Shown here: positions 1-60,810 of the stretch, piece by piece
Layout of the letters: each line of letters starts with the position of its first letter
How positions within the stretch are numbered: position 1 is the stretch's first letter
NCBI GenBank assembly: GCA_001972305.1
Contig: BDDD01000899.1
Coordinates: forward strand, 363,608-427,607
Reading direction: 5' to 3'
From: Cephalotus follicularis
Taxonomy: Eukaryota > Streptophyta > Magnoliopsida > Oxalidales > Cephalotaceae
Length of the DNA stretch: 64,000 nt
Notes under the pieces: model-generated
Databases searched by the model: none
Seen by the model: only the letters and a program-made list of their open reading frames with translations
What the model was told of the DNA's origin: nothing
Translations under genes and position numbers: made by a program

Positions 1-1769
1 CTAGAAACTTTATTCAAAATATGAAACTTAAACATAAACTGGAAGTTAAAACATAAACCAAAGCTTAAACATAATTCAAAGTCATAAACTAAAAGATATA
101 ATATTGTTTAAATAGGGGTCCTAACATGACCATAAAATAACTAAGCAAAAACGAGTCCATCTCCTAAGTAATCCTTATTATAGGTGACATCTCGCTCATC
201 ACACATTGCCCGGATGCTGTCCCATAGTACCTGCCGCATGAAAACAAAAACGCGGCTGAGCAAACCTTAGTACAGATATAGAATCATAAAATATAAAACG
301 ATAATTTATGAGATAGAAAAAATACCTTAATCTTTAAGTATCGTATACTTTATGCATAAAAATAAAGTAACATTATTTTCAAAATGAGTGAAGGTAAGAA
401 GTCATACAATCAATTCAAACGAGTATTAATTTTCAAGTGTTATTCAATTTTATAATCTAAGTTCAACATCCCAAAACATATTCAAAACGAAAACAACAAA
501 CAGAGACTTATCTGATTCCATAATCTCATTACCGAGATCCGAAGTGCATACACATATGCATAGGTGCAAGGGGTTCATGAGGCCCACATGCCAAACAGAA
601 GGACGTGTGCGTCACTACACAATCAATCCCCAAAATCCGTATCCTTAACATAACATATAACTAGAGTATACCCATACGCCTCTATCACAAAATCGGATCC
701 ATAAATCCACCTCATGGGATTTATTCAAAACAAAGAGAGACTCCGTAGCCGCATCACATTGCTACGGAAATGCCACGTCCCCGTGCCAGGCCCACGACGT
801 GCATATGGTACCTCCATAGGTAAGAAATATCTCTGTGTATATCTTTATTTCAAAAACATTACTTTATTATTTTTAAAATCAATTTAAAAATGTATACACG
901 TTTTCTAAACATTTTCTGGATATAGAAAAATTATCATCTAGCATCAACTTATTTATTTTCCACTATAAAGAGATGATGATTTCATAACCTATCGTAAAAC
1001 ATAACCAAGTTTATAAAACGAGATTATAGTATAAAACAAATTTTAGTTTGATAAATAGATAGCCAAACAAATAAAATCCGTACGTTATCCATAATGTAAA
1101 ACTACATTCTTTTTATCATAATAAAAACAGTAGGAGGGTATCAAGGAACGAAACATCCGTACAAAAACATATTTTAATTCATTTGAGTAAAACCGAAGGA
1201 ATAAGCCAAGAACGAAGAATCCGTACGATATTCATAAAATAAGACCAATATTTTTACTCTAGTAAAATCAATAGGAGTACCAATGAAAGAGTAATCCGTA
1301 CCTTAAGCGATTACAACAAAGATAGATGAATTGATCAACAATTTTAAAAGTCCCTCGAAGCACAAAAATCTAAAAGATGCAATATCATTCATATAAGCAT
1401 TCAAATATCACTTCCAAACATCAAACGTAACTTAATAGTGTTTAAAACAGACTCTAAATCATTTAGACGGACAGACGGATTAGAAAACTTAAAACCAGAA
1501 AGTTTTCTGGACAATTCCAGTCGACTGTAACAGGGTCCAGTAGACTACTCAAAGGTGGCAGTCGACTGTGTGACATAGGCAGCCGACTTCTCAACTGGGT
1601 ATGAATCCAGTCGACTGTGACAGGGGGTCCAGTTGACTGTACAAGGCAAGACAGTCGGCTGCTTCACAAGGTAGTCGACTGTTCTGGGCAACAGAACAGC
1701 AAAAACACAGCAATTCAATTCCAATTTTCTGTCAAACTTCCAATATTACTATACTAGATGATTTTAAAC
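1..1769 (-). mobile_element. Tekay-like LTR, family A, left piece (minus strand)
   Basis: The window opens inside this LTR. Orientation comes from the block around 228-270 (CCGCATG, then AAAACGCGGCTGAGCAAACC), which is the reverse complement of the block near 49678-49715 in the plus-strand 5' LTR of element C. Positions 781-1769 recur at 7044-8021 with only scattered differences. The piece stops at 1769, where Tekay pol begins. With 7044-9145 it rebuilds an LTR of about 3 kb, long like other Tekay LTRs. It has no coding sequence. The lineage is inferred from LTR architecture, because no family A pol lies in the window. Confidence 0.8.
1520..1679. repeat. 21-bp-phased GTCGAC array A1 (8 sites)
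   Basis: Eight copies of GTCGAC or a one-base variant start at 1520, 1540, 1561, 1582, 1610, 1632, 1654 and 1674. The steps are 20, 21, 21, 28, 22, 22 and 20 bp, so two quartets are separated by one longer step. Most sites sit in the decamer CAGTCGACTG or close to it, and the spacers are unrelated. It lies in LTR A. The function is unknown. Confidence 0.85.
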
Positions 1770-4255: not shown

Positions 4256-4427
4256 TGTAAGAACCGCAAATTCAATTCGTGTACATTGTAATAATGATTA
4301 ATAAAATGTGCACTTATTTGAATTTAATGTCCAATTATGGCAATTTGTGTTTGATAATTTCTTGGGATGAATTGGGATGCAAGTTGGTGGAAATCCAACT
4401 TAAGAAACTCTAAAAATAGCCTTGACA

Positions 4428-4551
4428 GCCGACTGCCACAGGGGTGAAGTCGACTGCCTGGCTTATGAAGGAGCAGTCGACTGTCACAGGGGAACAGTCG
4501 ACTGGCTGATGCGTGTTGAGGACAGTCGACTGGCCCATGCATCCAGTCGAC
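4428..4551. repeat. Paired 21-bp GTCGAC array B1 (6 sites)
   Basis: Hexamers start at 4428 (GCCGAC), 4449, 4476, 4497, 4525 and 4546. The steps are 21, 27, 21, 28 and 21: three pairs 21 bp apart with 27-28 bp between pairs. Most are embedded in CAGTCGACTG. The array lies close to the LTR 5' end, in the presumed U3. Confidence 0.85.
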
Positions 4552-5593
4552 TGGAATTTCGACAGAACAGGTGTCTGTGCAGGTGTAAAATAGAACTTGA
4601 GCGTGGCACTTAATGAGACAGGTGTCGTGGGCATGCACCAGCTGCCATGACATGCAAGGAGATCCCTTGCATGTGCTCTGCATCTTGCAGACTTGCCACC
4701 TGCAAGAATCAAGAAAGAAAAGGTAAGAGACAAAGACATGTGAGGGAGAGAAGGAAGGTGAGAAATATGGAGTGAATGAACCTGAAGAATTCTAAAATCC
4801 TAAGACCTCTATATCATCTGAATGTGAGCTGAGAAAGAGTGTTAGAAACACTAGAGATTGAAAGAATTGCTGGAAATTGTGGAGAGCTTGCATTGGAAGG
4901 TTAAAGTAGAACTCAAGGAAGAAGGAACTTGGGATCTTTGGACTCCTTCCTGGTAAGTTCGAATTCGAACTCCCTATGTTGTTGAAATCTGACAGTAAGG
5001 TTAGGAGAATGCTTAATATTCTGATTAACATGATTGGTTAACATTCTTCTAGGATTATAGAAATTGATATGGAATGTAGCACTTGGTTCAAGTAAATGAA
5101 TATGCAATCTCTAAATTGGTTAGAAGGTTGTTGTTAGTTCCATAATAAGCTACTGAATTCCTTATGGATATACAAACACATCTACTGGCCACTTAAGAGA
5201 TAATGGATTGAAATAGTTGATAAGTAAATAAGATGTGGTAAAAAGGAAGTGGATATATGCTTAATGAACAAATGACTTAAGCTACTGATTATAATGGCTA
5301 TAAGTGTTTACTGAATCTACTGTTACTGTTGCATGTATCCATAAACATGCATAGATTGAATTGCTGAGATTAAGAAGGATTGTTGGTGAAAGCTTGGAAA
5401 AAAGGCTTTGGAAACCTTAAAGAGAAAAATCACTCAATTGATCTTGGGATAGCATCTGAGGTAGGGGTAGTGTTATGTTTTGGAAGATATGTTCATGCAT
5501 TTCATGTATGGTACTTTCTACTTGCATTGAACTGATTTGGCATTGGATTGCATTACACATCAACTGTTATGCCTGCAATTCTGGGCAAAAACA

Positions 5594-5702
5594 GTCGACT
5601 GCCATTGAAAGCGGTCGACTACACAATTGATACAGTCGACTGTCAAGGCCTGGCAGTCGACTACACATCCCAACAGCCGACTGGTTCTTGAAGGCAGTCG
5701 AC
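5594..5702. repeat. 21-bp-phased GTCGAC array B2 (6 sites)
   Basis: Hexamers start at 5594, 5614, 5635, 5656, 5676 (GCCGAC) and 5697, giving steps of 20, 21, 21, 20 and 21. This is the most even array in the window, about 1.34 kb into the LTR of element B. Confidence 0.85.
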
Positions 5703-7043
5703 TGTCTGGGCAGAAATTGCATAACAACTGATTGAATTGCTACTGTTTTGCATTGCTATTGATCTGTATATACTACCATCATATAGTATGCACTGTTTGA
5801 TGTTATTTAACATCATTATTACTGATATTTCACTGATCGAATGAAACTATGTGCTATGTGCACAATTTTATGGTTTAACCCCCATTTTCAAATGAAGAAT
5901 TATTATTCATAAGAATTACTGCTTTAATTAATGTTACTGAATATGCTACTTATGTTAGTATATACTGTTGGGTGCTATTAACACCACTGCTACTGAGTAT
6001 TTAAAGGTTGAAACCCTTTATGGGCCTTGAACCAAAAATTATGATAATTACTATCATTTTCAAAAGAACACTTATTGTTAAAGGAACCACTGATTTTCCT
6101 CCTACATGAGAGGTATCTACTGTTTTGTTTCCTCACCTGGAAACCACTACTGTATTGATATCGTTTCCTCACATGAGATGTACGATTACTGAAATGTTAT
6201 ATGTTTCTAAAGAAAACACCTTGATATTGTATATTGATTATATATGTAATATTATTACTGATTGTACAGATTGAATTGATTGCCTATGTTACTGCCGTAG
6301 TTAGTGATGGAGGATATCACTGATTATGGATGTGATCCTGGGTGCCAGGAATTGGCCAGAGTATCACCCCACTGTCTGCAATTGCAGAAATTACTGTTAA
6401 ACTACCCGCCAACGCCGGTAGTAAATGTTACCTGTTCTATCATCCTCGGTGCATAGGGTGATAGTTAGGTGGTACGCAATTGGTGCTAGGAGTTAGCGAT
6501 ATGCCACACCCAAACCACTGAATGAATTGATTGTACCCTTGTGCGGTATCTTTGCATATGTACTGTTTATGGCCACTTGGCATGATTGCTTACATATTGG
6601 CTCACTGAAATGTTATTTTATATAAACTGTCATACATGTTGCATTTATATATATTCCTCGGCATGCATTATCTTCCTACTTAGACAAGTGAGGACAACGG
6701 CTAACCCCTACAATTACAGATTGAGCAAGGACGTTGGAGCTTGCTGCTGAAGCTTGGAAAGCTTCTGCTTATCTTTTAAGGTTGTTATTACTTTTAATGT
6801 GTTGTAATGAATGAACGAATCATACCTCGTTTATGTTGTTTCCTTATGTTAAGGATGATGTTTGAATTATACCGCACGTAGTATGGGATGCGTGCGGATG
6901 GCTTGTAATTTTATATTCCGGCTTATTGACTGCTTCCGCATATTGTTTAATTACTGTTAAATGAAATGCTGGAATGTATGTTTAATACTGATATCACCAT
7001 ATATGTTGTCTAATGGTAAGTGAACGAAAAACGGGGCGTCACA

Positions 7044-9145
7044 CCGTGCCAGGCCCACGACGTGCCTATGGTACCTCCATAGGTAGGGAATATCTCTGTG
7101 TATATCTTTATTTCAAAAACATTACTTTATTATTTTTAAAATCAATTTAAAAATGTATACACATTTTCTGGATATAGCAAAATTATCATCTAGCATGAAT
7201 TCATTTATTTTCCACTATAAAGAGATGATCATTTCATAACCTATCGTAAAACATAACCAAGTCTATAAGACGAGATTATAGTATAAAACAAATTTTAGTT
7301 TGATAAATCGATAGCCAAAGAAAGAAAATTCGTACATTATCCATAATGTAAAACCACATTCTTTTTATCATAATAAAAACAGTGGGAGAGTATCAAGGAA
7401 CGAAACATCCGTACAAAAACATATTTTAATTCATTTCAGTAAAACTGAAGGAATAAGCCAAGAACGAAGAATCCGTACGAAATTCATAAAATAAGACTAA
7501 TATTTTTACTCTAGTAAAATCAATAGGAGTACCAATGAAAGAGTAATCCGTACCTTAAGCGATTACAACAAAGATAGATGAATTGATCAACAATTTTAAA
7601 AGTCCCTCGAAGCACAAAAATCTAAAAGATGCAATAATATTCATATAAGCATTCAAATTTCACTTCCAAACATCAAACGTAACTTAATAGTGTTTAAAAC
7701 AGACTCTAAATCATTTAGACGGACAGAGGGATTAGAAAACTTAAAACCAGAAAGTTTTCTGGACAATTCCAGTCGACTGTAACAGGGTCCAGTAGACTAC
7801 TCAAAGGTGGCAGTCGACTGTGTGACATAGGCAGCCGACTTCTCAACTGGGTATGAATCCAGTCGACTGTGACAGGGGGTCCAGTCGACTGTGCAAGGCA
7901 AGACAGTCGGCTGCTTCACAAGGCAGTCGACTGTTCTGGGCAACAGAACAGCAAAAACACAGCAATTCAATTCCAATTTTCTGTCAAACTTCCAATATTA
8001 CTATACTAGATGATTTTAAACATTTACATAGGACTTATGTGACTTATCAGTTGCATTTAAACATCCAGAAATCATGCAGTGGGTGATCTTTCTTTTAAGG
8101 GAAGCAAACTCTACTTCATAGCATGCTTAACTATTAATCAATTTCCTGTCAAACACTAACTATTAAGTTTAAAACCTGTTTACTGCCATTATTAGACTTT
8201 CCAGGACTTACTAACAATCTCATAACAGTAACAAAACATGCATGGCAGGAAATCAAACTAAAACTCACTAGCAACCATATGAACATGCATTGGATATCAT
8301 TAAACTATTTTTAATTGTTAAACCATAATAACAGAGGAAACCAACCTGATTCAGTGAAGCAAAAGAGACAATAACAGGTTCTAATCCTTGCAAATTCGGC
8401 TACCAAGAGAGAGGTACACAATGGAGGCACAACAATGCATAATAACATACATATATAATATGGGAAAGTTAATTTAGGTCATGGTAAGCCAAAAAGGAAA
8501 TCAAAACCTGTTATGATAAGGAAAAGGAGCAACATTTCGGGATTGACAGGGAGAAAAGAAGGCAAGAAATCTGTTTTGGGAGAGGAGGAAAGCAAGAGTA
8601 CGGGAGAGGGAGGGAAAGAAGGAATAAGGAAAAAAAAATAAGTCGTTAACAAATTTGCCATAATACTCTTATTTTGCCATATTTCTTTTCGAATTTAAAA
8701 CACTTTTGCCATATTAATAATTAATCTAATTTATAATACAACAATTGATTTTATTTTCCCCCTAATTCATCTTCCAATAATTTATCAAAATCCCAGAGAT
8801 GGTATTATTTAGCCAAGTCATAAAAGCCCAAAAATAAAAAGATTTGTTTTCCAATTAAAACAATTTCACCACGTTACTAATAAAAACCAATTTAATATTT
8901 ATACGAAACATAATTCAATTAATTTTTACCTATTCATAAACATAATCCAACCAATATTCACCAACCATATAATACAAGACAATAGATTTTTGTTTTTCCA
9001 ACAATCATATCCTAATAAAATAAAAGCCCTAAATTTAAAATCACATAACCCAAGGAACACATTATGCCACAACAAAATATGCTAACACAACCAATAAATC
9101 AAATTTAAAATCCGAAATATGCACGTGAACGAACGGGGTATTACA
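7044..9145 (-). mobile_element. Tekay-like LTR, family A, right piece (minus strand)
   Basis: Positions 7044-8021 repeat 781-1769. Unique LTR sequence continues to GGGGTATTACA at 9145, the reverse complement of an LTR start TGTAATACCCC, like the start of element C (TGTAATACCC at 48335). The purine-rich stretch around 8520-8630 is the reverse complement of a pyrimidine-rich leader like the one in the element C LTR (near 54970-55080). That supports minus orientation and a transcription start region there. There is no coding sequence. Confidence 0.8.
7772..7931. repeat. 21-bp-phased GTCGAC array A2 (8 sites)
   Basis: This is the duplicate of array A1. Sites start at 7772, 7792, 7813, 7834, 7862, 7884, 7906 and 7926, with the same spacing (20, 21, 21, 28, 22, 22, 20). 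The GTTGAC of A1 at 1632 is an intact GTCGAC here (7884). The array lies 1.2-1.4 kb inside the LTR 5' end. Confidence 0.85.
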
Positions 9146-27893: not shown

Positions 27894-28931
27894 TGAAAGG
27901 ACCTAAATGGCAACTTTTAATAAGTAAATTTGTTTGCGGAATTAACAAATTTAACTATGAACATAAACGAGCACACAAGAACAAATAATACAATTGTAAG
28001 TAAAGAGATAAGGGATAGAGAGTGTCCAAACGATTTATAGTGGTTCGGCAAAATCCGTGCATACGTCCACTTTCTCAAGAACCCCTTGAGATTCCACTAG
28101 AGACCACTAGCAACCTTTGATTTCGGCTTGCGGGTTCAAATCAAAGAAAACCACCTTACACTTGATCTACCCCCTTTGATAATCCTTCTAAGGGTTCACT
28201 CCCCTTGATTATCTCACGAAGGAATCACTTCTCTCTTTTTCAATGAAAGACTTAAAGGATTGACTTGTGTTTACAAATAACCTTTTAAAGGTTGGCTATG
28301 AAAGTCATAGCTGGTTACAAACTTTGGATGTGAAAATGTAAACTATAGCTTGATGTTCTTCTCCTTGTAAATGTGCAAGTTGAGCTTATGAGATTTGATG
28401 ATCAAAAGTCTTTTAATCTTGTTTCTTGGCCTCTATATATTGCTTTCTTCAGTTTATGGCTGTTGTAAAAGTAATATAGCCGTTGGAGAAGTCTTGAAAG
28501 TTGTTGCATAAAAATTGGCTCTTTAAAACGAATTCTGACATTGTTCCAGCCGTCCAAAGCGTCGACGGTGTTGCCTAAAGCGTCGGCGCTTAGGTTACCG
28601 TTATTAGTTGAATTTGAATTTTCTCGTTCAGTCCGTTTGCGCTTTAATCTGGGAGTCGACTATTTGTATAAAGCGCTGACGCTTTACTCCTAAGCGTCGC
28701 CGCTTTGAGTTCTTCAACTAATTCCACATATCTCTGTTTTAATCCGCTGATGCAAGCTTCTCAAGCGTTGACACCTGGGTCCAAACCGCTGACGCTTTGA
28801 TTCGAACCGTCGGTCCTTTGTCATGTTTCTGCACTTCTTTATTTTGTTTATCTTTTACTTGCACAGAAAGTAACAAAGTTAAATATAAATATATAATCAT
28901 TAAAACTCAGGATTGAGACTAAAAGTCAACA
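27894..28931 (-). repeat. 3' LTR of SIR1
   Basis: TGAAAGGACC...AAAGTCAACA, 1038 bp. It is 21 bp longer than the partner LTR because it keeps one extra unit of the GTCGAC array (sites at 28561 and 28582 against only 31913). ATCTCCCCAT follows at 28932, the complement of the polypurine tract. Confidence 0.93.
28561..28814. repeat. 21-bp-phased GTCGAC-like array E1 in SIR1 3' LTR
   Basis: Sites start at 28561 (GTCGAC), 28582 (GTCGGC), 28655 (GTCGAC), 28675 (GCTGAC), 28696 (GTCGCC), 28746 (GCTGAT), 28767 (GTTGAC), 28788 (GCTGAC) and 28809 (GTCGGT). Steps within groups are 20-21 bp, and the last four are exactly 21 bp apart. The fuller motif is AAAGCGTCGACGCTTT and variants. The array begins about 120 bp from the LTR 5' end. 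Confidence 0.8.
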
Positions 28932-31245: not shown

Positions 31246-32262
31246 TGAAAGGTCCTAAATGGCAACTTTTAATAAGTAAATTTGTTTGCCGAATTAACAA
31301 ATTTCACTATGAATATAAACGAGCACACAAGAACAAATAATACAATTGTAAGTAAAGAGATAAGGGATAGAGAGTGTGCAAACGATTTATAGTGGTTCGA
31401 CAAAATCCGTTCCTACGTCCACTTTCTCAAGAACCCCTTGAGATTCCACTAGAGACCACTAGCAACCTTTGATTTCGGCTTGCGGGTGCAAATCAAAGAA
31501 AACCACCTTACACTTGATCTACCCCCTTTGATAATCCTTCTACGGGTTCACTCCCCTTGATTATCTCACGAAGGAATCACTTCTCTCTTTTACAATGAAA
31601 GACTTAAAGGATTGGCTTGTGTTTACAAATAACCTTTTAAATGTTGGATATGAAAGTCATAGCTGGTTACAAGCTTTGGATGTGAAAATGTAAACTATAG
31701 CTTGATGTTCTTCTCCTTGTAAATGTGCAAGTTGAGCTTATGAGATTTGATGATCAAAAGTCTTTTAATCTTGTTTCTTGGCCTCTATATATAGCTTTCT
31801 TCAGTTTATGGCCGTTGTAAAAGTAATATAGCCGTTGGAGAAGTCTTGAAAGTTGTTGCATAAAAATCGGCTCTTTAAAACGAATTCTGACATTGTTCCA
31901 GCCATCCAAAGCGTCGGCGCTTAGATTACCATTGTGAGTTGAATTTGAATTTTCTCGTTCAGTCTGCTGGTGCTTTAATCTGGGAGTCGACTATTTGTAT
32001 AAAGCGCTGACGCTTTACTCCTAAGCGTCGCCGCTTTGAGTTCTTCAACTAATTCCACATGTCTCTGTTTTAATCCGCTGATGCAAGCTTCTCAAGCGTT
32101 GACGCCTGGGTCCAAACAGCTGACGCTTTGATTCGAACCATCGGCGCTTTGTCCTGTTTCTGCACTTCTTTATTTTGTTTATCTTTTACTTGCACAGAAA
32201 GTAACAAAGTTAAATGCAAATATGTAATAATTAAAACTCAGGATTGAGACTAAAAGTCAACA
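31246..32262 (-). repeat. 5' LTR of SIR1
   Basis: TGAAAGGTCC...AAAGTCAACA, 1017 bp, nearly identical to the partner except for scattered changes and the 21 bp loss in the array. Near-identity points to a recent insertion. Confidence 0.93.
31913..32146. repeat. GTCGAC-like array E2 in SIR1 5' LTR
   Basis: This is the counterpart of E1 with its first unit missing. It starts at 31913 (GTCGGC) and keeps the same order of GTCGAC, GCTGAC, GTCGCC, GCTGAT, GTTGAC, GCTGAC and TCGGC sites at 20-21 bp steps within groups. Confidence 0.8.
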
Positions 32263-33320: not shown

Positions 33321-33535
33321 GCCGACAGTCCCACTTAAAGCGTCGACGCTTTGGTAGTAACGATCGACCCTTTAAATGTGAAAGTCGACGCTTTGAAGAT
33401 AAGTTGTCAGTTGACCTGGACGAAGACTTAGAGCGTCGACGCTTTGTAAGAAAGCGTCAGTGCTTTAGTCGGGATAGAGGTGAAAAAGCTCTGTATAAGG
33501 CCTTAACCGTCGACGCTTAAAAGTAAAGAGTCGAC
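33321..33535. repeat. 21-bp-phased GTCGAC array F in the solo LTR
   Basis: Sites start at 33321 (GCCGAC), 33342, 33363 (ATCGAC), 33384, 33410 (GTTGAC), 33435, 33456 (GTCAGT), 33509 and 33530. Steps are 21, 21, 21, 26, 25, 21, 53 and 21. The best copy is AAAGCGTCGACGCTTT, the same long palindrome as in copia SIR1. It begins about 180 bp into the LTR. Confidence 0.85.
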
Positions 33536-33738
33536 GCTTTGCCCTGTGTCAGGTGAAGAATTCTAGCTTTTTACCCCATTTCGGAGGAATTAAATGATTT
33601 GTAGGACACGTGGCAGGCCAGGGGAAGATGCTATAAGGTATTATCTGGGGATGTAACAAGTGTACACACTTGGATTGGTTAAATTTTGTCACATGGGCTG
33701 CCAATAAAGAGAATTGAGTGTGTGAGAGGGGGGAAGAA

Positions 33739-43104: not shown

Positions 43105-43372
43105 GTCACAGTACGTGTCCAAAGTGTCGACGTTTTATTACTAAGCGTTGGCGCTTTAGGGCAAAGTGTTAACATAAAGCCAAACAAAGCGTCGACAAAA
43201 ACTTGACATGTAACAAAGGAAAGCGTCGACTCTTACATCTAACAAAGAACCAAAGCGTCGACAGTTTCTTGCAAAAAGGAACAAAGTGCAAAGCAAAGTG
43301 TTGACTAAACACAGCATAAAACAGTACAAAGCGGCGACGCTTAAAAGACAAGCGTCGACGGTTTGCGTCGAA
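43105..43372. repeat. GTCGAC array G in LTR G
   Basis: Sites start at 43105 (GTCACA), 43126, 43147 (GTTGGC), 43168 (GTTAAC), 43191, 43225, 43257, 43300 (GTTGAC), 43333 (GGCGAC), 43354 and 43367. The first four steps are 21, 21, 21 and 23; later gaps are 32-43 and one is again 21. The motif is of the AAGCGTCGACG type. Confidence 0.75.
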
Positions 43373-44127
43373 CACAGAATACCAGTTGCAGAAAATCAGT
43401 TGCAAAACATGAGTAAATCTGATTTTTCATAAACAATGAGCATAACTATTAACATGCAGGTTCTGTGACCTGTTATACCAGTTCAAAAACACCAGTATAT
43501 AACTATCTTAGTGCATGATCAAAAGTAAAACAAAAGTATGGAAGTTTGAAGTAAAAATTTTCTGGTTTAAAACAGTTTATAAAACATATGCTATAATCCA
43601 ATTTTCCTGTGCACAAACCTTAAGACGGTAATACATTTATATGTCTTCAACATGATTTCTTTGTTTTTAAGCATCAGTATTACAAACTATGCATAGAATC
43701 CATGGATGAACATATTAAGATAACAGCAGAAATTCTTTCTCAACAGGGTCCTAAAAACATGATCAAAACAAATTCTAGCATGTTTGTATATGAAACTAAC
43801 AGTTGATATATAAATTATGTAGTAAAAACTACAACTTTCGTTTAGAAAATACCTCCAAAAGACGTCAAGATGATGCAGAGAAAATGTGCTCAAGTTGCTG
43901 TGTTGGTTTGTAAGAAATGCAGAGATGGTTTATGTTTTAAAAACAATTTGTCTGGTTAAATGCGAAAATCCATGTGTTTAATGGAAAAATTCGGTATGTT
44001 AAAACATTTCCATATAGGCAAAAACGCGTTCAGCTATTTAGGAAATCAATTGGCCAATTTAAGGAAAGCATCCAACATTCCAAAAACACTGCCACCATCC
44101 AAAACAATTAAGGAAGACAACCAAAGC

Positions 44128-44253
44128 GCCGCCGGTTTCCCAAAAAGCGTCGATGGTTAAAAACTTAAATACAAACGCGTCGATGTCACACGTTTAGGCG
44201 TCAACGTGTGTCACAGCACCCAAAGCATCGGCGGTTCTAATAAGAGCGTCGAC
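44128..44253. repeat. Paired 21-bp GTCGAC array H near the LTR G 5' end
   Basis: Three pairs: 44128/44149, 44179/44200 and 44227/44248, each exactly 21 bp apart and separated by 30 and 27 bp. This is the layout of array B1 in element B (21-27-21-28-21), although the flanking bases differ. Confidence 0.8.
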
Positions 44254-44502
44254 GGTTTGTGCCCAGAAAATAATTTCAAAAAGAAATCAAAAGGTCCACA
44301 AACCATAGCACATAACAAAATATATATATATACACACCCAACGATAAACATATACGCATAGAAACGGCATATTACACTCCGCTCATAGCATTAATCTTTA
44401 CTAGATTAATCCTCCCTGGATCGCAATCCAGTAGTTGTTCATCTCAGTTCATTACATTTTCATATTTCATAAATCATTTTCTTAAATACCTTGAGCGATC
44501 AG

Positions 44503-48053: not shown

Positions 48054-48334
48054 AGTAGTAACACCCAAAATTTCATAATGAAAGAATGATATTGGGTGCT
48101 TGGAAATGGGTTCTATGGCATTGGGCCGAACCTGGTCAAGGAGAGAGAGGAATGCTGGGCCGATTATCACAAATTATTAGCCCAAATTTTGAAGTAAACG
48201 ATGATAAGTGTCAAGGGAATATCCAGAGCCTTCCATTTCAGCTATAAAAGAGAAAGTGGTGAGTTTGGGGATGGTTGTTGCTGATTTGGAGAGAAAGAGA
48301 CAAGGGAAAGAGGCAAGCGAATGCCATTGTCTAG

Positions 48335-50011
48335 TGTAATACCCTGCATACCTGTACGTATTTTCTTACGGGTTCTATTTGTTTCGTTTATGTTTTGGGT
48401 ATGTTTTATGTTTCGTTAGTGTTTTGTGCTGCCTGATACCAGCCTTAAAGTTTGGGCTTGATAGTATGGATTTTGTGTTGGGAAAATTAGTTATATTATA
48501 TTTATTTATTATTAAAAACTATTTTAATTTATAAATACATAATCATTTTCAGAAATTACTTCCAGGTTGTGTAGTCGACTGGCTCTGTTGTGTAGTCGAC
48601 TGCCACCCATTGTTAGTCGACTGGATTCTTCAAACAGTCGGCTGGAATGTCCTGTAGTTTTCTGTTTTCATCCGTTATTCTACCGATGATCTGGGTTTAT
48701 CTCTAAACATCGTTATAATTTTGTTTTATGCTCAAAATGAATTTTTGACCCTTATATGAATGTTTTCGTATTGTATAGATTGTTGTGCTACGAGGAACTT
48801 TTTTTAATTTATCGGTTATTCATAAGCTTATCTGTGATCGCACAAGGTACAGGTTTCTCGTTCCTTGGCACACTCTTGATGTTTTAATTCTATTTTGAGA
48901 TTAAATACAGATTCTGGTTTTGTTATCATTCGATTTTATGAATATGCTGTCCTTTGATTTATGAACTCCGTATATTTAGATTTTGAAAATAAAGTCATTT
49001 GATATTCTGACTTTATGAAATCAGTATAATGTGTTTACGAAATGTTATCCAATCATCTCTTTATTGTGAAATTAAATGAGTTGATTTTCCGATTATGAAA
49101 GTATGTGTTTATATCGTTTGGGGACGATCTATGATTGTGTTTTGGGAAACCTTTTATGTGTTTTTAAATGATTTGATGAAATCATAATTTTTAAAGTGGT
49201 GATATACTGAGCTTTTTAACCACCTATGGGGGTACCATAGGCATGTTGTGAGCCTGGCACGGGGGTATGACACTTTCCGTAACGGTGTGATTTGTTTACG
49301 GCGTCTCTCTGTGATGTCCTTGGATAGGATTTGTGATAGAGGTGTATGGATAGATCCTAGTTGTATGTTTATGAGATATGTTTATGAGAATTGTTTGTGT
49401 AGTGCTGTATACTACAATTCCATTTGGCAATGTGGGTATCGTGAGCCCCTTGCTACTATATGATATGTTTTGTGCTCAGTCATGGATCCTATGTTTTAAA
49501 AAGGTACACATTATGGTTTTCAAGTCATGAACTGGTCTATATGTTTTGCCGTGGGCATTTACAAAGTATGTTTAAATTATTTTTATCGCTTAAGATTTCT
49601 GCTTAAAGTATGTTTTGAAATCTTCTTGGTTTAAAATATTGTTTACTGCTTTATATTTTGTATCAGTATGGAGGTTTGCTTAGTCGCGTTTTTGTTTCCA
49701 TGCGGCAGGTTATCAGGAGCAAAGGGGCAATGTGTGATGAGAGTGACTTCCATATGTCTGAGGATCACCTAGGAGCTGATTCTTCTGTGTTTATGTGGTC
49801 GTAGTAGGACCCGTTTATTAAACAATTATGTTAATTTGATTTATGACCTTTGGATTATGCATTAGTTTCAGTTTTGATCAGATTTTATATGTTTGGGTTA
49901 TGCTTTAAACCATCACATTTTTTAATAAAGAAGGACGTTTTAATACGATATGTTATGTTTAGTTTCCATTATATGCACTTGTGGCGACTCCCACAGATCG
50001 GGGGTGTTACA
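48335..50011 (+). repeat. 5' LTR of element C (1677 bp, internally deleted)
   Basis: TGTAATACCC...GGGTGTTACA. Compared with the 3' LTR, 982 bp (54916-55897 there) are missing at the join 48560/48561, just after the AT-rich promoter region (TTTATAAATACAT near 48530). The deletion also removes the first four of eight GTCGAC sites. Confidence 0.9.
48574..48642. repeat. 21-bp GTCGAC quartet C (remnant)
   Basis: Sites start at 48574, 48595, 48616 and 48637 (GTCGGC), exactly 21 bp apart each time. They equal the second quartet of array D in the 3' LTR. Confidence 0.85.
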
Positions 50012-50016
50012 GTTTA

Positions 50017-50028
50017 TGGTATCAGAGA
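50017..50028 (+). other. Met-tRNA primer site of element C
   Basis: TGGTATCAGAGA lies 5 nt after the 5' LTR end, the usual place and sequence for chromoviruses using initiator Met-tRNA. Confidence 0.85.
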
Positions 50029-50183
50029 ATAGGTTTTGTTTCCTTAGAAGACCTAACTCGGTTTGACCTGTGAGCTTGGGTAGACTTGGGTTAGGACTGC
50101 TATGTTTTCGGTCTTTCTAATATGTTTTCTATTTTGATCTTCATGTTTTGATTTGATATCACGTGTTTCGGTTTCCTTCGTAG

Positions 50184-51328
50184 ATGGTACGTACAAGAAA
50201 TACTTCTCAGAGAACTGCACCAGCTGGGGCTCGAAGGGAATTCAGAAATGAGCCTTCTGTGGAAGAATTGGTTCGTCAGGCAGTTGCTCAGGAAGTGAAT
50301 CGTGTTATGCAACGACAGAATCGGGAACAAGTGGTTGAGGAGAATGCTCCGGCAGAGGTTCAGGCGGGTGTGGAAGCTGGGGATAGGCATGGCACACCTA
50401 CTCATGTTTGTCTTGAGCGGTTTCAGAAACAGAGGCCGCAGTCTTTCAGTTCGGCTGTGACACCAGTGGAAGCTGAACATTGGATAACACACATGGAGAA
50501 GATCTTTAATGTTTTGAGGTGTGATGATCAGCAGAAAGTAAGGTTGGCAGCTTACAAACTCTAAGGGGATGCACAGAAATGGTGGAATACTCTGAATTCC
50601 GCTAAGGGTGGAGGTTATGCAGAAGCCCTGTCATGGTTTGAGTTTCGGGATGTCTTTTATCAGCAGTATTTCCCCACTGCTGATAAGGAGGCCTATGCTA
50701 GAGAGTTCGTAAACACCAGGCAGAAAGATGGAGAGACAGTTTCAGAATTCTTGGCCCGTTTCACTAGATTGGCTGGGTTTGCTGGATCCGCGGCTGGGTC
50801 AGCATCTAAGCAAGCTGAAAAATTCAAGTGGAAGCTCATTACCAGCTTAGGGGAAAGCTGATAAACTCAAGGTTTGCGGATGTAGCTGAGGTTGCTAATG
50901 CCGCGAAAAATATTGAATTAGAGAGATTGGATTTTCAGGCACCCCGTCTGGAAGGAGATAAGAAGCGAAATAGGAATGACCAAGGTTATGGACAGCAAAA
51001 CAAGGGTCAAGGCAGATCATGGAACAGGGGCAGAGGAGGTAAACAACATAACAAAGATCACAAGCAGAATAAAGATGGTAATCAACAGCGTCAGCAAGGA
51101 AATGATCAGAAGAACGCACAGGGAGCTTATTGGGGTAACCCCGACGTACAGATTGCTAAATGTGATGCTTGTGGTAGGTATCATCCGGTCGGTACGTATT
51201 ATAAAGTCAGTGGGGCTTGTTTTTTGTGTGGACAGATGGGACACTTTGCGAAGGATTGTCAGGATCCTCGTGCTAAGGAAAAGAAGGGTAATGGTGTGAA
51301 TGCTGGGCAGCGCAACATAGGAGGCTGA
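50184..51328 (+). pseudogene. Element C gag
   Basis: The start MVRTRNTSQRTAPAGARREF is followed by the gag core (HWITHMEKIFNVLRC, then QKWWNTLNSAKG and WFEFRDVFYQQYFP). A TAA at 50562-50564 interrupts the core in frame, and a frameshift near 50830 follows. The rest (50828-51325) has a basic Gln/Lys/Asn-rich stretch and the CCHC knuckle CFLCGQMGHFAKDC near 51218-51260. The TGA at 51326-51328 separates it from protease, which continues in the same frame. Gag would form the capsid; this copy cannot make a full protein. Confidence 0.9.
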
Positions 51329-54300
51329 GTCTTTGCGATTACGACTCATCAGGTAGCTAATGCTCCAGGTACGGTTTTAGGCTTTATTTCTGTTGGTAAC
51401 CGTAGAGCTTATGTGTTATATGATACTGGATCGACACACTCGGTTGTGGCGAGGTCTTTTGTTCGGCATCTTGGTATGCCTTCATAGTTGTTTGATCCTA
51501 CTTTGGTTCTTTTTACCCCTATGGGGACATCTGTTGTGATATCTGAGTGTTTTTATGATTGCCCTATTATTTTTGATGATCGGGTCCGAGATGCGGATCT
51601 TCTTCGTCTTGATATGTATGATTTCGATATTATTCTGGGGATGGATTGGTTGGAGCGCCATCGGGCTACGATTGATTGTCATGCTCGGAGGGTTCTGTTT
51701 GGAGATGTAGACCGACCTGATTTTATTTATCAAGGTTCACGGCCTATGAAGGATGTTAGGATCATATCGGTTATGAAGGCCCAGAAGTTAGTAGCTAAGG
51801 GTGCCGAAGGGTTTCTGGCAGTTGTGAAGGATGTCTCAATGGTCGGGCCTCGCCTTGAGGACTATCCTGTGGTTAGAGAATTTTCTGATGTGTTTCTGGA
51901 GGAGTTACCGGGTTTGCCACCGCAACGGGAAGTGGAGTTTTCCATCGAACTCATTCCTGGGGCAGCACCTATATCTAAAGCACCTTATAGGATGGAACCG
52001 CTTGAATTGCAAGAGCTGAAAGAGCAGTTGCAGGAGTTGCTAGAACGGGGTTTTGTCCGGCCAAGTGTTTCGCCATGGGGAGCTTCGGTCTTGTTTGTGA
52101 AAAAGAAAGACGGATCTATGAGACAGTGTATTGACTACAGAGAACTGAATCGAATCACTGTTCGTAATAAATACCCTTTGCCTAGGATTGATGACCTGTT
52201 TGATCAACTCCAAGGTGCACGGTATTTTTCTAAGATCGATTTGAGGTCTGGATATCATCAGTTGTGAATAAAAGATGAAGATGTGCCTAAGACCGCTTTC
52301 CGTACACGGTATGGGCATTATGAATTTCTGGTGATGCCATTTGGGCTTACGAATGCACCGACAGTTTTCATGGACCTAATGAATCGGGTTTTTCATGAGT
52401 GTTTGGATCGGTTTGTGATTGTGTTCATCGATGATATCCTTGTGTATTCGAAATCGAAGGAGGAACATGAAGAGCAACTTCGTATAGTGCTTTGCATTCT
52501 GAGGAAGAATCAGCTATACGCAAAGTTTTCTAAATGTGAGTTCTGGTTGCAACAGGTGGCGTTTTTCGGCCATGTGATTACAGCGGAGGGGATTTCTGTG
52601 GATCCTGCTAAGGTTGAAGCTATTACTAAATGGCTGAGACCTACTACAGTATCGGATGTGAGGAGCTTTTTGGGTTTGGCTGGTTACTATAGGCGGTTCG
52701 TGGAAGGCTTCTCCTCTATAGCCTTGCCACTGAATCAGCTTATGAGGAAGGGAGCAAAATTTGTGTGGAATGATGAACGGGAAGCATGTATTGAGAAGCT
52801 GAAGAACGGTCTTGTGTCTGCACCGATTCTCCGTTTACCATCTGGGTCGGGAGGATACCAGATTTATAGTGTTACTTCTAAAAAGGGTTAGGGTTGTGTT
52901 CTGATGCAGCATGGTCATGTGATAGCATATGCTTCGAAACAGTTGAAGCCTTATGAATTGAATTACCCTACGCATGATCTCGCGTTGGTGGAAGTTGTGT
53001 TTGCATTAAAAATTTGGAGGCACTACTTGTATGGAGAAACTTGTGTCGTCTTTACCGATCATAAGAGTCTCAAGTACATCTTCACGCAAAAGGAATTGAA
53101 TATGCGTCAGAGACGTTGGTTGGAGCTTCTGAAAGATTACGATTTGAATATTCAGTACCACCCTGGTAAAGCAAACGTGGTAGCTGATGCTCTGAGTAGG
53201 AAGAATTCTGGGAGTGTGGCAGCTTTGGTCATGCAGTCGCATTTGATAGCAGATATGGAGAGATTGGATTTGAATTTGTTTGTTTGGGGTTCAGATGGAT
53301 ATATGGTTGGCATGAGTATGGAACCTACCCTTATATCTCGAATTAAGGCAGCTCAGAATGATGACGGTGAACTTTGGGCCTTGATTCAGAATGTTGAAAA
53401 GGGTAAACAGTCAGAGTTCCGTGTGGATGAGCATGGAATGATCTGGTTGGGTAGTCGGTTGTGTGTTCCGGTAGATGCTTCTATCAGGGATGCTGTCTTA
53501 TCCGAAGCGCATAGCTCTCCGTTCTCTATACATCCAGGTTCTACAAAAATATATAGAGACTTGTAGGAAAATTTCTGGTGGAGCGGAATAAAGAGGGATG
53601 TAGCAGAGTTTGTCAGAAGTGTTTGGTCTGTCAGCAGGTTAAGATCGAACACCAGCGTGCTAGTGGTTTGTTACAACCCTTGGAAGTTCTGGTGTGGAAA
53701 TGGGAGAGTATTGCAATGGATTTTGTTACAGGCTTGCCGAGAACATATAGAAGAAACGATGTTATTTGGGTTGTTGTGGATTGGTTGACCAAATCAGCTC
53801 ATTTCTTGGCAATCCGAGAAGACTTTTCTGTGGACCGCTTGGCGGAGGTTTTCCAGCGGGAGATTGTGAGACTGCATGGGACTCCTGTATCTATTGTTTC
53901 GGATAGGGATCCTCGTTTCACCTCACAGTTTTGGCAGGGATTTCAGAAAGCTTGGGGTACTAGGCTAAATTTCAGTACAGCTTTCCATCCACAGACAGAT
54001 GGGCAGACAAAGAGGACTATTCAGACCTTAGAAGTTATGTTGAGGTCTTGTGCTTTGGACTGGACTGGAAGCTGGGATGAGTATTTGAGTCTAGTGGAGT
54101 TTGCCTACAATAATAGTTGGCATGCTAGTATTCGTATAGCTCCGTTTGAAGCTCTTTATGGGAGGAAATGCCGAGCTCCGATATGCTGGGATGAAGTCGG
54201 GGAAAGGGTTATTGAAGCCCCTGAGCTAGTACGAATCACTACTGAGAAAGTGGCCATAGCAAGGGAGAGATTGAAGACAGCTCAATCTCGACAGAAGAGT

Positions 54301-54706
54301 TATGCAGACAAACATCGAAAGGATTTGGAGTTCAAGGTAGGTGAACATATGTTCTTAAAAGTTTCACCTTGGAAAGACGTCCGGCGGTTTGGACTGAAGG
54401 GAAAGTTGAGTCCTCGGTATATAGGACCATTTGAGATTCTGGAGAGGGTTGGCGCAGTTGCGTATCGGTTAGCTTTGCTTCCACAGCTATCTCATGTTCA
54501 TGATGTGTTCCATGTGTCCTTGTTGAGGGGTTATCAGTATCATCCGCTACACGTGGTCCACTACCCTTTGGACAATGTTAGGGAGGATCTATCTTATGAG
54601 GAGGAGGCGGAAGCTATTTTGGATCGACAGGAGCGGGTTATGCGTAGCAAGACCGTTCCGTTTGTGAAGGTGTTATGGAGGAACCATCCCGAACGTGAGG
54701 CTACTT
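51329..54706 (+). pseudogene. Element C pol: protease, RT, RNase H, integrase
   Basis: Protease has YDTGSTHSVV near 51420, with a TAG at 51485-51487. RT runs from about 51870 ([13 protein letters not shown]) through PFGLTNAP and the catalytic FIDDIL near 52430, with a TGA at 52265-52267. RNase H has a changed first motif (SVTSKKG where SDASKKG is usual), then a TAG at 52889-52891; its other motifs remain. A TAG at 53564-53566 and a frameshift near 53613 break the integrase finger. Integrase keeps DWLTKSAHF and SDRDPRF, but QTKRTIQ replaces QSERTIQ, so the catalytic glutamate is lysine. The chromodomain-like tail is cut at REAT, where 3' LTR sequence starts. Confidence 0.92.
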
Positions 54707-57340
54707 CTGTACGTATTTTCTTACGGGTTCTATTTGTTTCGTTTATGTTTCAGGTATGTTTTATGTTTCGTTTATGTTTTGGGCTGACTGATACCAGCCT
54801 TAAAGTTTGGGCTTGATAGTATGGATTTTGTGTTGGGAAAATTAGTTATATTATATTTATTTATTATTAAAAACTATTTTAATTTATAAATACATAATCA
54901 TTTTCAGAAATTACTTTTTAAAACAAAAATCCTTAATATTTATTTTATTTCCTTTTATTTCTATTTTCTTTCCGATTTCTCTTCCAACTCTCCCTCTCTC
55001 TCTCGTAGTCCACTCTTCCCCAATCTCCTTCTCCCTCACAACTCTATCTTTTCCTCCTCATCTCCCCAGAAATCAGTCCACATTCCTTATCCTAGCAGAT
55101 TTGATTTCCTTTCTTTGTATCCTTTCCCATTTGGACTCCTTGCTATATATGTGAGGCTATGCGAAATCCTTTCTGCCGTGTCTTTCTTGGTGTGCTGCTA
55201 CTGCTGAATTGCTGTGCATTAAGGGTTGTAATTTTCGTGTCTCTTGCTCCATCAAAAAGGTTAGTTTCATCAAAGGATCAATACATAATTTATTTTATGG
55301 TTTATTGCATAGCATTATCAAAAGTTTGAATGGGTATTCCTTCCTCTTTGATTCTGTCGGGCAGCTTGTTCTTCTTCAATCAGTGTCGCCATTACAGGTT
55401 AGTGGTTGCTCTACTGTGATGGTTAGGTGTTAATGCGATCCATGAATTGTTTTGTCATGTTTAAGTTGTTATTGAAGGCGTAGTTTTGGTTTCTGTCCTT
55501 CTTGATTTTCTGTCGAATGATCATGTGTTTATAGCAATCTGTAGACATCTAAGAATTGATATATAATCTGTTGTTGATGCATATGATCATCATAAGTGGA
55601 TAGAATGAAATTATGAATTGGTATATTATGGTTTAGAGTCCCTGTCACCTTAAACAATTTTCTATCAACATGCCTTTGTCGAATTCTGTGTTGTAACAAT
55701 GTTTTCATGTCATATCGAGTTGTTTTACATGTTGGTAACCTTCTGGTATCGAAAAATCCGAGTCTTGTTTGCCAAGATTGCACAAACTGCACTGAACTGC
55801 TGTTTTGATACCCAGAACAGTTGACTGTCAGTATGAACAAGTCGACTGTCTAGTTGAGGAGTCGACTTGACCCCTGATCCAGTCGACTGTCTGCAAATCC
55901 AGGTTGTGTAGTCGACTGGCTCTGTTGTGTAGTCGACTGCCACCCATTGTTAGTCGACTGGATTCTTCAAACAGTCGGCTGGAATGTCCTGTAGTTTTCT
56001 GTTTTCGTTCGTTATTCTCCCGATGATCCGGGTTTATCTCTAAACATCGTTATAATTTTGTTTTATGCTCAAAATGAATTTTAGACCCTTATATGAATGT
56101 TTTCGTATTGTATAGATTGTTGTGCTACGAGGAACTTTTTTTGATTAACCGGTTATTCATAAGCTTATCTGTGATCGCACAAGGTACGGGTTTCTCGTTC
56201 CTTGACACACTCTTGATGTTTTAATTCTATTTTGAGATTAAATACAGATTCTGGTTTTGTTATCATTCGATTTTACGAATATGCTTTCCTTTGATTTATG
56301 AACTCCGTATATTTAGATTTTGAAAATAAAGTCATTTGATATTCTGACTTTATGAAATCAGTATAATGTGTTTACGATATGCAATCATCTCTTTATTGTG
56401 AAATTAAATGAGTTGATTTTCCGATTATGAAAGTATGTGTTTATATCGTTTGGGGATGATCTATGATTGTGTTTTGGGAATCCTTCTATGTGTTTTTAAA
56501 TGATTTGATGAAATAATAATTTTTAAAGTGGTGATATACTGAGCTTTTAACCACCTATGGGGGTAGCATAGGCATGCTGTGAGCCTGGCACGGGGGTATG
56601 ACACTTTCCGTAACGGTGTGATTTGTTTACAGCGTCTATCTGTGATGTCCTTGGATAGGATTTGTGATAGAGGCGTATGGATCGATCCTAGTTGTATATT
56701 TATGAGATATGTTTATGGGAATTGTTCGTGTAGTGCTGTATACTACAATTCCATTTGGCAATGTGGGTATCGCGAGCCCCTTGCTACTATATGATATGTT
56801 TTGTGCTCAGTCATGGATCCTATGTTTTAAAAAGGTACACTTTATGGTTTTCAAGTCATGAACTAGTCTATATGTTTTGCCGTGAGCATTTACAAAGTAT
56901 GTTTAAATTATTTTTATTGCTTAAGATTTCTGCTTAAAGTATCTTTTGAAATCTTCTTGCTTTAAAATATTGTTTACAGCTTTATATTCTATATCCGTAC
57001 TAAGGTTTGCTCAGCCGCGTCTTTGTTTCCATGCGGTAGGTTATCAGGAGCAAAGGGGCAATGTGTGATGAGAGTGACTTCCATATGTCTGAGGATCACC
57101 TAGGAGCTGATTCTTCTGTGTTTATGTGGTCGTAGTAGGACCCATTTATTAAACAATTATGTTAATTTGATTTATGGCCTTTGGATTATGCATTAGTTTC
57201 AGTTTTGATCAGATTTTATATGTTTTGGTTATGCTTTAAACCATCACGTTTTTAATAAAGAAGGACGTTTTAATACGATATGTTATGTTTAGTTTCCGTT
57301 ATATGCACATGTGGCGACCCCACAGATCGGGGGTGTTACA
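54707..57340 (+). repeat. 3' LTR of element C (2634 bp, first 17 bp missing)
   Basis: It matches the 5' LTR from CTGTACGTATTTTC onward and preserves the full internal region lost from the 5' copy. That region includes the pyrimidine-rich leader near 54970-55080 and the complete eight-site GTCGAC array. The first 17 bp, the polypurine tract and the pol end are gone; the join shares CTGTACG with the intact LTR start. Confidence 0.9.
55820..55979. repeat. 21-bp-phased GTCGAC array D (8 sites)
   Basis: Sites start at 55820 (GTTGAC), 55841, 55861, 55882, 55911, 55932, 55953 and 55974 (GTCGGC). Steps are 21, 20, 21, 29, 21, 21 and 21: two quartets with one longer step, the same plan as array A in a different LTR family. 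Confidence 0.87.
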
Positions 57341-57756
57341 GTCTAGAGACTCGTCTCTCCTTTCCGCTCTCGTTTTAATCCCCTCATTTCCAATCATGAA
57401 ATAGACATGGAGAGAGGAAGTGCCAAGGGAAACAGCGAAGGAAGAAGCTTAGCTTGAGGACATGAATGCGATTGTCTAAACGAGGAAAGGAAAGCGTAAA
57501 TCGAGACTCGACAAATTTAAGGTAGGATCTGCTACCTACTCAGTACTTGTATTTTATTTAAATGTTACAAATGTTATGCAATGCTTATGTATTTGGCTAG
57601 ATTTAGTCTACTGAATGAATGATAAGGCTGAGTATATATAATTGTCCTTTGGAACTAGTAGTAAGCTTTTACATACTGTGTTATAGACTGTAAAGAGTGT
57701 ATTAGTGTTTCGACACATGTTGGTTGAAGGTTCAAAGAAGGACTAGCGTACCTGGA

Positions 57757-59812: not shown

Positions 59813-60810
59813 TGAATTGTAGACTTTAAAAAAATTATGAACTTTTTCGAAAAATTAGCCAAAATAAAAATTAAACTAACAATTCAAAAACAACAATTAT
59901 ATTAAAACAATTATACTAACAAAATAAAGAGATAGAGAAGAAGAATGCAAACACAGTTTTATAGTGGTTCGGCTTAATCTCTTGCCTACATCCACTTTTC
60001 TCAAGGATCTCCTTGAGTTTCCACTAGTATCCGACCTCCAATACAATAGTTGTGATTGACCTCAATCACACACACAAAGGTTCACTTCCCTCAAATATTT
60101 GAACAAATGCAAGAATGAATATCTTTTTGTATCACCTCTCAAAGGCTTGATATAGAGTAAATTTGCTCACAATAATAGCTTGAAATAAGACAAGAACAAC
60201 TCAGAGTAATGCAATGATTGCTGTATGACTTGATTGATGTTTCTTGGTTGTTCTTGAGCCCTATTTATACTGTTTTTGGTGAAAGAGCCGTTGTGTAATG
60301 TCTTGTAGCCGTTGAAATAAATTTGGAAACTTTGGCCTTAATTTTTGCGTTGATAAGATATTATCTGGCTGTAATTCCAGATCAAAGTGTCGTCGGTTTG
60401 AATATAAGCGTCGATGCTTCAAGTGCTGCCAGTTTGAGATTAACTGTCGCCTCTTAGTAATGCTGATGTTTTATGTCATTCGTTATTCTCAGACTTTGAA
60501 TTTTAACCGTTGGTGCTTTGAATACTCTGTACACTAAAACCGCTGACACTTTGTGCTGAAACTGTCTCCACTTTCAATTTGAGAGCTGGCGCTTTGTGCA
60601 ATTTTTGTCTTCGACACTTTCGTATTAATTCTCGACGCCTTCAACCTCACAAGCCCAGAAGCGCTGACGCTTTCAATTTGACAGTCGACGCTTTGTCTGA
60701 TTGAACTGATTTGTATCTGGTATGTCTTCTTGCTTATCTTGCACAAATCAAACTCATTAATTGCAAATGTGTAATCATCAAAATTAGGAATTGAGATATA
60801 AATGTCAACA
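59813..60810 (-). repeat. 3' LTR of SIR2 (about 998 bp)
   Basis: It runs from TGAATTGTAG, after the G-rich tract, to AATGTCAACA. The right end is firm because the polypurine tract follows. The left end is chosen by analogy with SIR1 (TGAAAGG) and could lie up to 25 bp further left. Confidence 0.75.
60389..60689. repeat. 21-bp-phased GTCGAC-like array K in SIR2 LTR
   Basis: Pairs and triplets start at 60389/60410, 60425/60446, 60542/60564/60585, 60610/60631 and 60663/60684, each 21 or 22 bp apart. The cores are degenerate (GTCGTC, GTCGAT, GCTGCC, GTCGCC, GCTGAC, CTCGAC, GTCGAC). The array begins about 120 bp from the LTR 5' end, as in SIR1. Confidence 0.7.

Follow-up and report, generated by a model that had tools for sequence, protein, structure and literature searches.

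Palindromic TCGA-centred dyads phased at about 21 bp in LTRs of gypsy and Sirevirus-type copia retrotransposons

Introduction

A long terminal repeat (LTR) in the Cephalotus follicularis genome carries a row of short GTCGAC-type palindromes that follow one another at steps of about 21 bp. This locus raises the question of what maintains such a spacing, and whether the layout is read as DNA, acts as RNA, or is the remnant of a tandem repeat. We addressed this question in the window (the whole stretch of DNA analysed, 64,000 nucleotides), in a sample of the genome and by genome-wide pattern searches, starting from an initial annotation made from the sequence alone.

Results

Eight phased dyads in the LTR of a gypsy element

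The initial annotation reported eight sites in an LTR at steps of 21, 20, 21, 29, 21, 21 and 21 bp. All eight are present, beginning with GTTGAC at 55820, continuing with GTCGAC at 55841, 55861, 55882, 55911, 55932 and 55953, and ending with GTCGGC at 55974 (six exact copies and two with one mismatch). We refer to them as array A (Table 1). The 64-kb window contains 49 GTCGAC hexamers versus 4.85 expected, arranged in several groups, with a few standing alone, and none of 100 shuffles reached this number. With both end sites of array A held fixed, finding six of the seven steps in the range 20-22 bp has a P value of 5e-6 (1 of 200,000 simulations). The spacers of array A, described by the annotation as unrelated, have a mean pairwise identity of 0.27 (versus 0.25 in shuffles, P = 0.15) and its site decamers have a mean identity of 0.85. 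Array A is better described as a layout than as a repeat. We considered and rejected a local tandem repeat (minisatellite) as its description, since the spacers are at shuffle level and are not copies of each other; Tandem Repeats Finder reports 2.8 copies of a 21-bp unit at 55903-55961. All seven CpGs of array A are inside sites. The array is not CpG-richer than other parts of the LTR, with a CpG observed/expected ratio of 0.68 over its 164 bp, 0.54 for the LTR before the array, 0.97 after it and 0.76 for the whole LTR.

The array lies within the 3' LTR of a Ty3/gypsy element (element A), in line with the placement of the sites inside LTRs by the annotation. The 5' LTR has lost 982 bp (about 54917-55898 of the 3' LTR) and with them the first four array sites, and keeps the last four. 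Element A is flanked on both sides by a GTCTAG repeat (48329-48334 and 57341-57346), and its PBS (50017-50027) is of the tRNA-Met type. The pol domains are in gypsy gene order, with the integrase core scoring below the Pfam cut-off and the Tf2-1-like SH3 domain above it. A chromodomain search gave a Chromo match in a second element of the window, element B, that was under the cut-off (E 0.023, 15.1 bits versus 25.1), and none in element A, the pol end of which is missing; we therefore label both elements Ty3/gypsy and nothing narrower. PF00385 is present in some relatives of element B, and the 120 best protein relatives on the list belong to many plant families, with identities of 46-64%. In element A, the 3' LTR has TATA-like matches at 54885 (TATAAATA), 55144 and 55560, all three of them upstream of the array. 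The same LTR has a pyrimidine-rich tract at about 54940-55110 (by eye) and AATAAA at 56325 and 57254. Donor-like GTTAGT/GTAAGT sequences precede the array and acceptor-like sites follow it in the LTRs of element A (55258-57045) and element B (4950-6720), as judged by eye. A leader intron could thus be present in both LTRs, placing these arrays inside the intron.

Table 1. Coordinates of retrotransposon features and dyad arrays in the window.
Feature	Position	Strand	Details
LTR D left copy, homologous 8-site array	1518..1681	LTR minus strand	steps 20,21,21,28,22,22,20
Element B (gypsy) 3' LTR	4256-7043		bounds by eye
Element B 3' LTR, first array	4426..4553	.	offset ~172; steps 21,27,21,28,21
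Element B 3' LTR, second array	5592..5704	.	offset ~1338; steps 20,21,21,20,21
LTR D right copy, homologous 8-site array	7770..7933	LTR minus strand	likely LTR start 9145
Element C	27894-32262	minus	Sirevirus-type copia
Element C 3' LTR array	28557..28818	element minus strand	AAGCG-TCGA-CGCTT-type dyads; steps 21,93,21,71,21,21
Element C 5' LTR array	31909..32149	element minus strand	shorter than 3' copy by one 21-bp unit
AAGCG-dialect array	33338..33539	.	steps 21,21,51,21,53,21
AAGCG-dialect group in LTR E	43122..43363	LTR E minus	mostly irregular; steps 21,44,34,32,76,21
Second group in LTR E	44124-44257		steps 21,51,27,21
Element A	48335-57340		Ty3/gypsy
Element A 5' LTR	48335..50011	+	begins TGTAATACCC, ends GTGTTACA; 982-bp internal deletion
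Four last array sites in 5' LTR of element A	48572..48644	.	steps 21,21,21; sites 48574-48642
Element A pol	51488..54816	+	four ORFs: protease RVP_2, RT RVT_1, RNase H, integrase core, Tf2-1-like SH3
Element A 3' LTR	54709..57340	+	missing: first ~20 bp + end of pol
Array A, 8 CAG-TCGA-CTG dyads	55818..55981	.	3' LTR of gypsy element A; steps 21,20,21,29,21,21,21

Further arrays in the window

Two copies of another LTR, LTR D, carry homologous eight-site arrays. LTR D is about 60% identical to the LTR of element A, and the two have the same layout of four sites, a longer step (29 bp in A, 28 bp in D) and four more sites. Compared in register, the site decamers of A and D are 85% identical and the spacers 49%, which bears out the proposal of the annotation that the palindrome and its spacing are what is kept. 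The accompanying claim of unrelated spacers holds for array A and only weakly for both LTR D copies and the first array of element B, in which the spacers are weakly related (identity 0.35, P = 0.0015 or less). Spacers of the second array of element B and of the 5' LTR array of element A are at shuffle level. A small inverted repeat (CTGTTyTG...CCCAGAACAG) adjoins the first array site and is conserved in the LTRs of A (55800-55820) and D (7931-7953, minus strand). Element B (2008-7043, apparently 5' truncated) is located between two partial minus-strand copies of LTR D (781-1769 and 7044-8021; 989 and 978 bp, 96% identical), which overlap in a way that simple insertion does not explain.

Element C is a Sirevirus-type copia element. 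The polypurine tract (PPT) AGGGGGAG followed by AT and the TG of the LTR is matched at 11 of 12 bases at 28941 on the minus strand, at the LTR edge. Chance 11/12 matches occur elsewhere in the window (53855 and 54262), so it is the position of this match that carries weight. The Sirevirus PBS TATCAGAGC is found at 31240 on the minus strand. Both this PBS and the PPT/attachment signature are given as Sirevirus features in the available text of PMC2829016. Element C has two ORFs of at least 150 aa, one a copia-type gag and the other unassigned, and no RT was seen among them. Dyads in its 3' LTR were scored at 10 or more of 14 bases, and the 5' LTR array is upstream of a CTATATATAG TATA box (~31795, minus strand, by eye). 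Between the two LTRs (near 28556 versus 31246-32262) there is a gap in the array whose length is exactly one 21-bp unit, which indicates that arrays are able to gain or lose one whole step. A perfect 12/12 match to the Sirevirus PPT/attachment signature at 60820 (minus strand) marks another Sirevirus-type element, accompanied by AAGCG-dialect sites scattered over 60413-60687. Near the AAGCG array at 33338-33539 there is also a true tandem repeat (33736-33954), consisting of ten copies of a 22-bp unit (GAAACTTACCTCATAAGCCATG, 94% matches).

Mostly irregular groups are at 43129-43357 (two of six steps at 21 bp) and 60413-60687 (one of six). The former is in LTR E, an inferred gypsy LTR on the minus strand (~44376-41752), at an offset that about matches those of the arrays of A, B and D. 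Homology between LTR E and element A was shown only for 41751-42630 and begins ~510 bp downstream of the array of A, so that a homologous position of the two arrays is suggestive only.

Phasing across the genome

The annotation staked its proposal on a genome-wide peak of site spacing at 20-22 bp, and a strong peak was found. In the 1.577-Gb genome, GTCGACN{4,34}GTCGAC (pairs 10-40 bp apart) matched 224,538 times and its backwards control, in which GTCGAC becomes CAGCTG and lacks the CpG, matched 3,925 times. Similarly, AGTCGACTN{11,15}AGTCGAC matched 110,861 times versus 364 for the pattern reversed. Among the first 100 listed pair places, which come from contig 1 alone and count some families more than once, the steps were 21 bp (48 places), 20 bp (20), 22 bp (8), 19 bp (5), 27-28 bp (10) and other (9). 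This amounts to 76 at 20-22 bp, with none at 24-26 bp.

The contig-1 and family bias of these places is reduced by a sample of 20 ten-kb stretches, chosen unread by contig number and round position, in which 13,747 of the 200,000 bases are N. The contig-1 stretch was chosen after the matches on contig 1 had been listed, and none of those matches is inside it. Site thresholds were fixed after the motifs had been seen; spacing was not used in scanning. The sample contains 272 TCGA-centred dyads, and 91 of the 157 steps of up to 60 bp are in the range 19-22 bp. Twenty dinucleotide shuffles of the 200-kb sample gave a mean of 65 sites and a mean of 0.10 steps in this range (maximum 1). Autocorrelation of CG dinucleotides in the sample (distances 8-130) had its top three values at 20, 21 and 22 bp (247, 243 and 207; median 163). 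When a single array was taken per family from sample and window (~18 families, an approximate number based on single linkage of flanks), 44 of 79 steps were in the range 19-22 bp versus 5.9 if uniform, and 17 of the 18 families had at least one such step. Further groups of steps in this set are at 39-43 bp (10) and 48-54 bp (15). The control cores AGCT, CTAG, GATC and GTAC gave no steps in 19-22 bp and CATG gave one. Cores that have letters in common with TCGA (ACGT, TGCA, GCGC, CCGG and TTAA) were also phased, because the same sites are caught with a mismatched core. Three of the 41 sample clusters are inside a detectable LTR pair of their own 10-kb stretch. No array copies were found in viral contigs, either by pattern or by protein search.

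Three arm dialects with one core and spacing

The sites have a common TCGA core and spacing and fall into three arm dialects: CAG-TCGA-CTG, AAGCG-TCGA-CGCTT and AGAC(A/G)-TCGA-(C/T)GTCT (AGACR). The AAGCG dialect is carried by element C, and many of its neighbouring centres are separated by exactly 21 bp (28564/28585, 28678/28699, 28770/28791/28812, 33345/33366/33387 and others). The AGACR dialect, first met in the genome sample, occurs at sample locus L020 in a gypsy element whose ends form a 728-bp direct repeat, and it intergrades with the AAGCG dialect. Dyads of 10 bp and of 14 bp do not differ in their step, which indicates that the centre-to-centre distance is what is kept. Loci L012, L020 and L024 are mutually homologous (60-70%), with mostly AAGCG-type sites in L012 and AGACR-type sites in the other two; the array of L018 is inside a 1.6-kb direct repeat. 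An exchange of dialects at one homologous LTR position was considered for element B and L020 and found no support, as there is no significant similarity between them despite an earlier linkage of their flanks.

Folding and covariation

RNA folds of three array strands are far better than those of shuffles (z = -5.9, -5.1 and -5.5), and these strong scores are due to the palindromes alone. With the sites fixed and the spacers shuffled, the native fold was not better in any of four arrays (P = 0.13-0.88). Random site spacing folds about equally well (P = 0.08-0.77), so folding fails to explain the 21-bp step. Inside dialects (32, 39 and 76 sites), complementary change within sites was detected in 2 of 30 position tests (P = 0.011 or less), namely position 3 of the CAG dialect (symmetric covariation, P = 0.003) and position 9 of the AGACR dialect. 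Complementarity between neighbouring sites inside dialects was significant in none of six tests, each with 12-23 pairs and therefore weak power (lowest P = 0.07). Left and right arms vary nearly independently inside dialects. When dialects are pooled, both arms change together at six of seven positions (positions 3-9, P below 0.03) and neighbours are complementary (z = 4.2 and 3.8), as dialect mixing alone would give. This pattern is better predicted by a protein that reads two equal half-sites than by base-paired RNA. A row of RNA hairpins, which the annotation had envisaged as an effect at the RNA level, was rejected as the cause of the phasing because covariation is mostly flat and shuffling the spacers leaves the folds as good as the native ones. 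The other proposal of the annotation, a dimeric protein on DNA, fared better, and dimeric recognition at the DNA level would fit these data best.

Between LTR copy pairs, 7 of 180 site bases differ, compared with 110 of 3,258 bases elsewhere. The sites are thus unprotected after insertion, which suggests that selection would act on transposing copies.

Discussion

A candidate DNA-level platform

Phased TCGA dyads are spread genome-wide, are carried by LTRs of both gypsy and Sirevirus-type copia elements and are conserved between LTRs that are about 60% identical. We favour the reading that the array is probably a DNA-level platform for a putative dimeric factor, with neighbouring sites about two helical turns apart, and that its role is most likely cis-regulatory. 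Each TCGA-centred dyad would consist of two inverted half-sites read by a putative homodimeric (or two-domain) DNA-binding protein, and the spacing would set successive dimers side by side, where they could cooperate. We infer the protein, its dimeric state, the cooperation and the direction of any effect. Selection on transposing copies would keep core and spacing, spacers would drift and arms would change by family (CAG-, AAGCG- and AGACR-). Cis-regulation of retrotransposon transcription, by enhancer-like action or by recruitment of chromatin factors, is the most likely role because the arrays lie in LTRs wherever the carrier is known. In A and D, the array follows a TATA-like box and a pyrimidine tract at a distance of ~650-930 bp (by eye for D), which is not the usual position of an enhancer. 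The array is upstream of TATA in element C, behind the TATA-like matches in element A and at two offsets in element B, so position-tolerant, enhancer-like action would fit better than a promoter-proximal role. The annotation further held that every site would be on the same face of the DNA. This does not hold strictly: steps of 27-31 and 48-54 bp, which are not whole turns, recur, and the groups at 43129-43357 and 60413-60687 are irregular.

More tentatively, the genome may have one shared, helically phased operator code, in which TCGA dyads two turns apart, with family-specific arms, are used by many LTR families of both superfamilies. Such a code could be read by a single host factor family, or the arms could evolve to follow or escape a diversifying reader. 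A 21-bp phase this sharp, common to gypsy and copia carriers and to all three arm types, speaks for a DNA-binding assembly and not for RNA hairpins. If true, this would illustrate how unrelated retrotransposons come to share one regulatory grammar, by convergence or by exchange.

Alternative explanations

The phase could instead be the memory of a unit length, with no function, if the arrays are old, decayed 21-bp units that grew by slippage. The one-unit difference between the LTR copies of element C, the weakly related spacers of D and the first array of B, and the 21-bp unit reported by Tandem Repeats Finder all agree with such an origin. So do a slight likeness of neighbouring arms (3 of 6 comparisons at P below 0.03) and the existence in beet of BvMSat05, a 21-bp minisatellite with monomers 38-100% identical (PMC2820488, available text). 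However, decay would blur core and spacer equally, whereas array A and the second array of B combine sites that are 85-88% alike with spacers no more alike than shuffles, and the same step is found in 17 of 18 families with different arms. We consider slippage an unlikely source of the phase. It is slightly less likely still that LTR transcripts fold into hairpin rows which give rise to small RNAs or regulate the element, as has been proposed for maize Sirevirus palindromes. The fold scores relative to shuffles are in favour of this, the array of element A is probably transcribed, and maize Sirevirus palindrome regions are small-RNA hotspots according to the available text of PMC5311732 and PMC10760457. 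Against it are the near absence of complementary change inside dialects, with weak power in the neighbour tests, and the native folds that neither spacer shuffling nor random spacing makes worse.

Two further explanations also have the arrays recognised by proteins. By analogy with VANC proteins, TE-encoded factors that remove DNA methylation from their targets, the arrays might be recognised by a sequence-specific factor that silences the elements or counters their silencing, and not be promoter elements. VANC proteins bind densely arrayed short motifs and their targets differ between related TEs, as the dialects do, but these motifs have one orientation and are often true tandem repeats (PMC5735166, available text). 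The confinement of the CpGs of array A to its sites is compatible with such targets; the presence of arrays in both gypsy and copia families is not what they would predict, and we rate this reading as improbable as the hairpin rows. DREB/CBF-type factors bind the consensus RYCGAC as monomers. If the sites were stress elements of this kind, the carriers would be cold- or drought-inducible retrotransposons. GTCGAC and the frequent variants GCCGAC and GTCGGC fit the consensus, unlike the ATCGAT-centred sites that occur in the AGACA dialect, and binding by monomers leaves the dyad and the phase unexplained. Sirevirus repeated motifs matched mainly stress-factor sites in PLACE (PMC2829016, available text). 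In one paper with GTCGAC alongside DREB, the hexamer occurred only as SalI primer sites. We regard this last explanation as very unlikely. The DNA-level platform for a dimeric factor remains the reading that we prefer.

Relation to known systems

The annotation knew of no described LTR feature with this layout. It overlooked the repeated motifs (RM) of Sirevirus LTRs, short palindromic dyads that occur in LTR clusters at 8-32 per element and vary in sequence between families (Bousios et al. 2010, PMC2829016). In the available text of PMC2829016, though, RM are not described as 21-bp phased or in Ty3/gypsy elements; the arrays described here are ~21-bp phased and have gypsy carriers among them. 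Likewise, neither 21-bp LTR phasing nor gypsy carriers of such palindromes were found in the accessible portions of the openly licensed papers searched. RM are the nearest described precedent, with a different core and carrier. In the available text of PMC2829016 their defining core is CGG-CCG, and they are said to be specific to Sireviruses among the Ty1/copia elements that were compared; regulatory and small-RNA roles were proposed for these palindrome clusters, and the authors did not find a common binding factor. The Vitis RM CGGTCGACCG and the Tnd-1 RM ACAATCGATTGT have the TCGA centre of our sites, and of the published RMs Tnd-1 likewise has no CGG-CCG (PMC2829016, available text). Element C resembles Sireviruses with RM in its PPT signature (one mismatch), its PBS and an array upstream of TATA. 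The 3' LTR of element A has eight dyads, the minimum copy number of RM (at least eight). However, its core is TCGA, its gene order and domains are those of gypsy and not of a Sirevirus (Ty1/copia), and its array is downstream of all three TATA-like matches, whereas RM are just upstream of TATA. RM also form a CpG island; for array A and its LTR the CpG observed/expected ratios are 0.68 and 0.76. Because of carrier, core and TATA position, the array of element A is not an RM by that definition; by analogy it may well work like one.

Other systems resemble the arrays in part. The maize palindrome CACCGGAC...GTCCGGTG (Bousios et al. 2016) is likewise clustered in LTR cis-regions (via PMC5311732 and PMC10760457). 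Its motif is different, it is read there as secondary structure or a small-RNA source, and neither gypsy carriers nor phasing were met in the available text of those papers. It is the top motif in structured regions of both Copia and Helitron (PMC10760457, available text), so sharing across TE kinds is not new in itself. VANC targets of Arabidopsis VANDAL transposons are also many short copies in non-coding TE parts that change between families; unlike the arrays, the motif YAGTATTAY is not a dyad, has one orientation and is often tandem, and the DNA transposon encodes its reader (PMC5735166, available text). Beet BvMSat05 is a tandem satellite with head-to-head junctions, for which its authors found no retrotransposon homology, and in these respects it is unlike the arrays; it is like them in its 21-bp period, in monomer identity as low as 38% and in the adjoining palindromic motifs GTCGGAC/GTCCGAC (PMC2820488, available text).
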